From the NCBI RefSeq assembly GCF_030053155.1, contig NZ_CP125640.1, forward strand, positions 3,490,001-3,554,000: a DNA stretch of 64,000 nucleotides, given 5' to 3'. Position numbers and translations under genes: made by a program. The notes below the pieces were generated by a model. The model saw only the letters and a list, made by a program, of their open reading frames with translations, was not told the origin of the DNA and did no database searches. Shown piece after piece: positions 18,911-20,392 of this stretch. Every line of letters starts with the position of its first letter. Position 1 is the first letter of the stretch. The stretch comes from Rhizobium sp. BT03 (GTDB lineage Bacteria > Pseudomonadota > Alphaproteobacteria > Rhizobiales > Rhizobiaceae).

Positions 18911-20392
18911 ATGTTTCCGGAAGCCCGATCGCCGCGAGAGGCGATCCTCCAGTTTCTCACCTCGCTTCAAAGCCCCGCACGCATTCTCGTCGCGATATCG
19001 GGCGGCAGCGATTCCACCGGCCTGCTTCTCCTTCTCGATGAAGCCGTGAAGGCCGCGCCCCATCTCAAAATCTCCCTATGCGCTGCGACCGTCGACCACG
19101 CGTTGCGCACCGGCTCCGCAGACGAGGCGCGAGAAGTCGCAGCCCTCTGTACGCCGCTCGGCATTGCCCACACCATCATGACCTGGCAGGGCGACAAGCC
19201 GAAAACCGGCATCATGGCCGCGGCCCGCGAGGCGCGTTACAGCCTGCTCGCCGAAGCGGCGGAAGCGTTTGGCGCCGATCTCATCGCCACCGGCCATACT
19301 CTCGACGATCAGCGCGAAACATTGCAGATGCGCGGCGTGCGAACGGAGCAGCTGTCATCAGGTATCGCCGATGCGGTGCTGTTCGACCGGCGGTTCTGGA
19401 TTTTGCGGCCGCTTCTCTTTTCCAGCCGGGCAGATATCCGCGCTTTTCTCAAAGATCAGCGTGTTTCGTGGATCGACGACCCCAGCAATGAGGACGTAAA
19501 ATACGAGCGGGTGCGGGTGCGCCGGCAGCTATCGACCGATCCTGCGATGGAGACGGATATTCGCGCGGCCTGGGAAGCACGGCTGGCTGTGTCGTCCGCA
19601 GCAGCCGAATGGCTTGACCGCCATTTCAGGCTTCATGGCGGTCTGCTTGGCCAGGTATCTGTCGATGGGTTGCGGCAGGATCGCGCAGTTCTGGACTATG
19701 CGCTCGGCCGCCTGACGGCGGTCTTCGGCGGGCAGGCATTCGCGCCGGGGAGGGCGCAGATGGAGCGCCTTCTCTCATTTGTCACCGGCGGGGAACCGGG
19801 GCGGATGACTGTCGGTCGAGTGGTGTTCGATCTGAGGCGTGACGGGCTCTATCTCTCGCGCGAGAGCCGGGGAATATTGCCGCTGGTGTTGCGACCGGGA
19901 GAGGCGGGGGTGTGGGATGGGCGGTTTGAAGCCGCAAACGGCTCCGGAGCGACCGTAAGGATAGAGGCGCAGGCCACCCGCTCCTCCCTCATTCCTGTGT
20001 CCTCAGGGCTTCGCCTGAGGGATGTCACAGGAATCCAGCCACCGCGCGTCGGCGCGGTGAATGACTCGACAAAACAGGACGAATCTCCCGCGCCCAAGGA
20101 CTTGGGCGCGCTGGATTCCTGTGACGAGCACAGGAATGAGGGGGAGTGGAGCAGGGGCCTGCCCAAGTCCGCTTCGAAGCGTGCCGTCGCCTCAGCGCCG
20201 GCTTTTTCCGTCGATGGACACCCTCTATCTCTGGAATCCGCCGCAGCGATCCATCTCACACCCTATTTCGCACCCTTCGACCGCTTTTTGACACGATTTG
20301 ATTTCATCTTTGCCAACAGGCTTTCGGCGGTTTTCGCGACGGCGCCCTATGCGAGGCCGCCTTTAAGAAGTATTGACGGAAAAACCATCTGA
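18911..20392 (+). CDS. tilS: tRNA(Ile)-lysidine synthase TilS with in-frame repeat insertion
   Basis: TilS adds lysine to C34 of tRNA-Ile2(CAU) using ATP, allowing it to read AUA. The N-terminal PP-loop motif is SGGSDST (residues 30-36). The ATP-pyrophosphatase domain continues through ATVDHALR and GHTLDDQRET. At 493 residues it is longer than usual for the family. The excess matches residues about 358-412, encoded by a nested palindrome (19984-20145) with no stop codons. Beyond it the normal C-terminal segment resumes (HLTPYFAPFDRFLTRFDFIFANR), so the gene appears functional. It follows cpoB closely. Confidence 0.95.
   Translation: MFPEARSPREAILQFLTSLQSPARILVAISGGSDSTGLLLLLDEAVKAAPHLKISLCAATVDHALRTGSADEAREVAALCTPLGIAHTIMTWQGDKPKTGIMAAAREARYSLLAEAAEAFGADLIATGHTLDDQRETLQMRGVRTEQLSSGIADAVLFDRRFWILRPLLFSSRADIRAFLKDQRVSWIDDPSNEDVKYERVRVRRQLSTDPAMETDIRAAWEARLAVSSAAAEWLDRHFRLHGGLLGQVSVDGLRQDRAVLDYALGRLTAVFGGQAFAPGRAQMERLLSFVTGGEPGRMTVGRVVFDLRRDGLYLSRESRGILPLVLRPGEAGVWDGRFEAANGSGATVRIEAQATRSSLIPVSSGLRLRDVTGIQPPRVGAVNDSTKQDESPAPKDLGALDSCDEHRNEGEWSRGLPKSASKRAVASAPAFSVDGHPLSLESAAAIHLTPYFAPFDRFLTRFDFIFANRLSAVFATAPYARPPLRSIDGKTI
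19984..20145. repeat. Nested palindromic repeat inserted in the tilS reading frame
   Basis: Outer arms CCCTCATTCCTGTG (from 19986) and its complement (ending 20142) enclose a second perfect 14-bp pair (20026-20039 with 20110-20123). Inner hairpins lie at 20001-20020, 20042-20057 and 20089-20110. The same kind of sequence occurs in non-coding repeats in rhizobia and other alphaproteobacteria. Here it is read through as about 54 extra amino acids. Confidence 0.85.

Follow-up and report, generated by a model that had tools for sequence, protein, structure and literature searches.

A palindromic repeat dispersed in root-nodule bacteria lies in frame within the tilS gene of part of the genus Rhizobium, present in some lineages and absent from others, in either of two orientations whose distribution is independent of phylogeny. 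Only a narrow tract of the gene is linked to orientation, and the stems of the repeat evolve slowly. We consider it likely that the pattern in tilS is explained by tolerated repeat DNA that is exchanged between species as a small cassette, the comparisons suggesting past mobility of the repeat and recombination as the route of exchange. The original prediction, made on the window (the whole stretch of 64,000 nucleotides analysed here), had recognised the palindrome and missed its two orientations, its phylogeny-independent distribution and the fact that conservation resides in the DNA of the stems.

Results

The palindromic element within tilS

TilS, an essential enzyme, is encoded in full in the window (Table 1). 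Pfam places the PP-loop domain (PF01171) at residues 25-205, and the best fold matches of the TilS model are the solved TilS structures 2e21, 3a2k and 1ni5. The gene ftsH follows closely on the 3' side. The palindrome at 19984-20145 corresponds to approximately residues 358-412 and, as the original prediction held, leaves the reading frame unbroken, which stays open across the insert up to the conserved C-terminal end. Its nested character is equally clear, with a predicted RNA fold of -109 kcal/mol against a shuffle mean of -59.2 (z = -12.1) that none of 200 shuffles equalled. The outer arms at both ends and the three small hairpins were found as described, and the inner arms are indeed perfect, but 16 rather than 14 bases long.

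Table 1. Features of tilS and of its palindromic element, in window coordinates
Feature	Position	Strand	Basis
tilS, tRNA(Ile)-lysidine synthase, 493 aa	18911..20392	+	ORF, Pfam, fold matches
Putative exchange cassette, W codon of WDGRF (residue 335) to LPK (residues 417-419)	19913..20167	+	linkage with orientation
Palindromic element copy, forward orientation (19984-20145 in the original prediction)	19982..20142	+	boundaries from local alignment to consensus
Left outer arm, partner 20129-20142, 14/14	19986..19999	+	arm complementarity
Accessory hairpin within the loop of the left terminal hairpin	20001..20020	+	fold, copy alignment
Left inner arm, partner 20110-20125, 16/16	20024..20039	+	arm complementarity
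Inner hairpin 1, 8-bp stem, 4-nt loop	20040..20059	+	inverted repeat
Variable spacer, mostly unpaired; codons within evolve at gene-like rates	20060..20089	+	copy alignment, rates
Inner hairpin 2, 8-bp stem, 4-nt loop	20090..20109	+	fold, pair analysis
Right inner arm	20110..20125	+	arm complementarity
Right outer arm	20129..20142	+	arm complementarity

By direct reading, the element ends in CCTCATT...AATGAGG and has no GTAG/CGTC tag at its ends, CGTC being present inside loops. The tilS copy carries a hairpin in its left loop beyond the consensus; a long left loop recurs in two of the 18 other copies of its own genome (L002 and L006), the rest having a 5-nt loop. A 10-nt perfect inverted repeat pairs inner hairpin 2 with the tilS LPKS codons (20098-20107 / 20161-20170) and may be due to chance.

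The AlphaFold model of TilS built with 52 aligned sequences reached a mean pLDDT of 82.8 and was used in place of the single-sequence model (pLDDT 36.8). Confidence fell below 50 at residues 358-368 and 376-413 and at the final four residues, the remainder of the enzyme being confident. The insert is therefore probably a disordered loop, in line with the tolerated surface loop of the original prediction; this disorder is a prediction, and low pLDDT in the insert may also stem from poor alignment there.

A dispersed and apparently mainly intergenic repeat

The own genome contains 115 matching pieces at E<=10 and 19 full-length places, tilS included. The figure of at least 18 further full-length copies is a lower bound, as it comes from 30 loci, several of them pieces of one copy, and excludes, by manual choice, L023/L024, a divergent variant that spans the full length. 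The 16 next-best matches are 81-87% identical over about 91-150 of the 182 query bases, which excludes chance for the repeat. The consensus of about 145 bp has four hairpins, two terminal (ATTCCTGTG / CACAGGAAT) and two inner, together with a variable spacer. Some copies of the own genome diverge and may represent subfamilies: L020 and L021 differ in their inner hairpins and have almost no spacer, and L023/L024 has a longer interior. The additional genomic copies on which the original prediction was made to depend thus exist, and its label "mobile-type" agrees with their number; mobility itself is deduced from copy number, and a transposase was not linked to the element.

Matches at E<=1e-10 were found in 101 of 148 genomes of the genus, where copy numbers are undercounted since at most five candidates were scored per genome, and in 18 of 247 genomes of a family sample (at most three candidates scored), 14 of these lying outside the genus. 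Among 72,556 plasmid records (PLSDB) 178 matched, mostly from Rhizobium (107) and Sinorhizobium (66). Phage records gave no match to the element, and the four Rfam matches all fell under the gathering score. A terminator role was rejected, the element having no terminator-like pattern.

The usual home of the element looks intergenic. No annotated feature lay under the best match in any of the 56 annotated records among the 60 best plasmid rows, nor in any of 52 among 60 spread rows, which are partly the same records; one place was checked per record, and the PLSDB gene tables are incomplete. A second host gene was not recognised in the own genome, where Pfam was run on the four long ORFs that span a copy and returned CcmH only, entirely downstream of the element. 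Similarly, 20 places from 11 of the 15 positive genomes, with 18 spanning ORFs longer than 200 aa, showed no clear interior insertion when read by eye. At L233 and L236 a gene that otherwise looks plausible has the element at its extreme start, where it may be the 5' leader. It also lies directly upstream of ccmH in the own genome (L006, 1505-1687; Pfam CcmH) and, by eye, upstream of a comparable ORF in a second Rhizobium genome (L244), perhaps a conserved intergenic site.

Allelic states of tilS across the genus

The gene was found and read in all 148 genus genomes. The core of the element is forward in 32 and reversed in 26; five linkers retain one arm only and 85 have no recognisable core. 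Classes were assigned by score to the asymmetric core with a cut-off of 16, the highest of 60 shuffles per linker being 15; the five arm-only calls are weaker, as the arm cut-off of 16 equals the highest shuffle score. The insert-free lineages that the original prediction considered thus exist. Among the core-free linkers 72 of 85 measure 24-31 codons, this class also taking in solo hairpins (e.g. L073, L079 and L080) and diverged linkers. In the 14 element-bearing genomes of seven other genera, tilS is likewise insert-free in every case, with a short linker; the best core or arm score, in L257, is 12 against a maximum of 11 in 40 shuffles of that linker.

Frames were assigned from the peptides. 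Frame-a peptides are encoded by 31 of the 32 forward copies, the exception (L098) being degenerate, and frame-b peptides by 24 of the 26 reverse copies; L051 and L112 combine a reversed core with arms still in frame a. Forward and reverse carriers bear insert peptides unrelated to each other. In every one of the 58 core carriers the frame continues as far as the conserved DRFLTR end, whereas the 18 other own-genome copies are open in frame Fa in only 12 cases, Ra in eight, Rb and Rc in six each, Fc in three and Fb in two. One tilS (L097, genome G002) appears as a pair of neighbouring ORFs (query 1-183 and 186-493) owing to a frame break upstream of and far from the insert, which is either an assembly error or real.

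A distant sub-clade (L101, L103, L104 and L112) has linkers of 101-119 codons, in which the element lies inside further sequence that was not found in the insert-free relatives L108, L110, L115 and L120. A 5-bp TGCCG repeat surrounds a larger block when L101 is compared with L115 and is ambiguous as a target duplication. Since an exact empty site with target duplication was not found, insertion into tilS is deduced from presence and absence.

Orientation, phylogeny and linkage

On two trees the orientation of the insert is no more tree-like than shuffled labels. The tree of the tilS DNA before the linker (58 carriers) requires 18 changes of orientation against 19.3 (sd 2.0) for shuffled labels, and 673 of 2000 shuffles needed 18 or fewer. 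The other tree, based separately on 4.7 kb of flanking DNA, was built from the window and 27 named genomes (of 53 loci, the other 26 being mostly more distant), with 25 carriers, eight forward and 17 reverse; it requires seven changes against 6.96, and 1357 of 2000 shuffles needed seven or fewer. For instance, the flanks are 96.7 and 98.1% identical between R. johnstonii 3841, a reverse carrier, and the forward carrier Rhizobium sp. WYCCWR10014.

Linkage with orientation is confined to the surroundings of the insert. The scan covered 49 main-clade carriers (26 forward and 23 reverse; the nine others are more distant). Over the 60 nt that follow the W codon of WDGRF, Fst between the two classes reaches 0.16-0.18 (null maximum 0.044); in each of the fifteen 30-nt bins that precede this codon it stays at the null level, at 0.012-0.027 against a null mean of about 0.02. 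Downstream, the first bin gives 0.044 (null maximum 0.037), the second 0.041 (null maximum 0.041), and later bins fall within the null. The left edge of the cassette is therefore sharp at 30-nt resolution and the right edge approximate, with weak linkage about 30-60 nt past LPK. Pairwise comparison gives the same picture: thirteen main-clade pairs of opposite orientation, chosen by eye from the tree, are 76-99% identical in windows before the linker and 43-65% identical in the first 18 linker codons, the same codons being 89, 98 and 98% identical in three pairs of the same class.

The retention index on the flank tree averages 0.54 for 62 sites of the tilS body, declining towards the insert from 0.69 through 0.49 and 0.45 to 0.32 in the last ~100 nt (4 sites). 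Six flank sites range from 0 to 0.33, and orientation itself, by the same formula, has 0.14, which three of the 62 body sites equal or undercut. The C-terminal sites are also lowish (0.39, 10 sites), so any exchange tracts would not be razor-sharp on that side. Synonymous sites of the flanks are near saturation (dS 0.9-1.1), so point mutation may account for part of the homoplasy there; it cannot account for orientation.

Conservation of DNA or of peptide

Substitution rates were estimated from copies within L031-L071, 19 of them forward and 18 reverse; L051, L063 and L068 were excluded deliberately, and the search pattern did not catch L043. Synonymous divergence in the stem-bearing part is 0.116 (forward) and 0.092 (reverse), compared with 0.608 and 0.420 in the spacer, which offers only about 5-6 synonymous sites, and 0.571 and 0.550 in the 150 codons before WDGRF. 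Nonsynonymous divergence behaves alike, at 0.068 and 0.100 in the stem-bearing part and 0.335 and 0.390 in the spacer, so that the former evolves 4-5 times more slowly in two unrelated reading frames. For the whole element dN/dS is 0.62 (forward) and 1.03 (reverse) against 0.21-0.22 in the 150 codons before WDGRF. This conservation of the stems points away from the peptide, to constraint on DNA or RNA or to homogenisation with other copies or via the element's own arms. Covariation gives little, as only 2 of 50 predicted pairs (forward) and 2 of 36 (reverse) show kept double changes; what is conserved is the sequence.

Discussion

Proposed origin and spread of the tilS insert

We propose that a non-coding palindromic repeat of ~145 bp, found mainly between genes in Rhizobium and its relatives, would have entered tilS at the surface linker that joins the WDGRF strand to the C-terminal LPK segment. 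The insert would survive because the palindrome is often open in the frames used and because the linker would tolerate a disordered loop of ~45-60 residues. Two cassette alleles may then have become established in the main clade, forward (frame a) and reverse (frame b), each with its own flanking codons. They would pass from one species to another through homologous recombination over short tracts whose ends fall in the conserved WDGRF and LPK regions, and would also erode, leaving remnants, single hairpins or an empty linker. The main-clade pattern of linkage and divergence fits the expected trace of such recombination between two old linker cassettes.

A more specific version, which we put forward only tentatively, is that the translated palindrome acts as a recombination hot spot in an essential gene. 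Its hairpins would attract breakage and repair, so that a cassette of ~250 bp would be exchanged among Rhizobium species quickly enough to leave no phylogenetic signal. Allele conversion, not transposition, would then carry the palindrome from species to species in either orientation, the host protein bearing it as a disordered loop. SbcCD cuts hairpins. A cleaved palindrome should tend toward loss during repair, which counts against a simple hot-spot model.

Cassette exchange has to be weighed against switching in place, in which recombination between the inverted arms would flip the core or the whole element in each lineage without interspecies exchange. Such a flip leaves the length unchanged and hence keeps the frame, and the arms of the element are perfect inverted repeats. 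L051 and L112 show what it would produce, a reversed core with forward-frame arms, accompanied by forward-type flanks in L051 and, in L112, by flanks 83 and 91% identical to those of its forward relatives L101 and L103; the shared flanks of these distant sub-clade pairs fit an in-place flip, not cassette exchange. As an account of the whole pattern it is nevertheless unlikely, given that 24 of the 26 reverse carriers use frame b and that a flip inside the arms leaves the flanks as they are, whereas main-clade linker codons are only 43-65% identical between classes against 89-98% within a class.

Repeated independent insertion of a mobile element at one permissive spot of tilS, in either orientation and species by species, would account for an orientation unrelated to phylogeny, draws on the many copies per genome, and agrees with flanks in the distant sub-clade (L101, L103 and L112) quite unlike those of the main clade. 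We judge it improbable as the general explanation, though some species may have received a fresh copy, because main-clade inserts have spacers in common (STMREES and STKQDES), are 85-86% alike within a class against 81% to the 18 own-genome copies (six forward copies entering this alignment truncated), and travel with class-specific flanks. Selection for the insert as a functional domain of the Rhizobium enzyme, serving tRNA contact or regulation, is very improbable: its retention in many species, its highly conserved stems and the closeness of ftsH, through which mRNA structure could matter, are outweighed by the unrelated peptides of the two classes, a dN/dS above that of the 150 codons before WDGRF, the 85 of 148 genus members without a core and the predicted disorder.

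Relation to known palindromic repeats

The likeness to Rickettsia palindromic elements (RPE) drawn in the original prediction is a fair one. These are palindromic repeats of ~150 bp with many copies, translated in frame within genes (PMC10969869, PMC3733652). The tilS element, likened to them by description and not by sequence, similarly keeps an open frame in all 58 carriers, as judged from their DNA. It differs from RPE in having one clear host gene in the limited set examined, with most copies apparently intergenic, and in segregating in two orientations as cassettes that appear to be exchanged. Segregating orientations and the proposed species-independent cassette exchange are what is new relative to the known RPE-like translated palindromes. 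Intragenic REPs have been reported in many genes, and in Xanthomonas recB genes roughly the same site is occupied by different REPs (PMC3733652); translated palindromes outside Rickettsia are thus already known. With REP or BIME-like repeats (GTAG and CGTC families) the element shares oppositely oriented palindromic units that are mostly intergenic and in part intragenic, but it lacks the GTAG/CGTC tag at its ends, forms a larger unit of four hairpins, and no RAYT was seen beside it.

Rhizobia possess repetitive intergenic palindromes of their own, among them RIME, Sm and the A/B/C motifs (PMC2573895). The present element, compared with RIME by description only, is likewise a rhizobial palindrome and occurs on Sinorhizobium replicons as well, unlike RIME-type repeats in that these are described as intergenic. 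Its sequence letters had no match in the literature searched, where, within a coverage that is less than all that is in print, no description of such an insert in the tilS of rhizobia was found either. Rickettsia is the classic case of translated palindromes, with intragenic REPs elsewhere; here a single essential gene, in a genus that is free-living and well sequenced, occurs naturally in empty, forward, reverse, core-flipped and truncated forms and with a solo hairpin. This allelic series makes protein tolerance, selection on DNA versus peptide, and palindrome-driven local recombination between species testable.

The element also resembles MITEs in being short (~145 bp, within 70-300 bp), dispersed, bounded by terminal inverted repeats (14/14) and too short to encode a transposase, unlike them in that neither a parent transposon nor a clear target duplication was found. 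The search for an autonomous element covered the Y1 transposase family in the own genome, and the 3360-bp locus of the only such ORF contains no inner-arm match with at most two mismatches. At this locus (L141, 949-1935) the IS200-like Y1 transposase ORF stands beside an apparent ccdA-type membrane protein gene, both named by reading, and is flanked on both sides by CCCCCGGCAAAGCCGGGGG hairpins, a repeat different from that in tilS.
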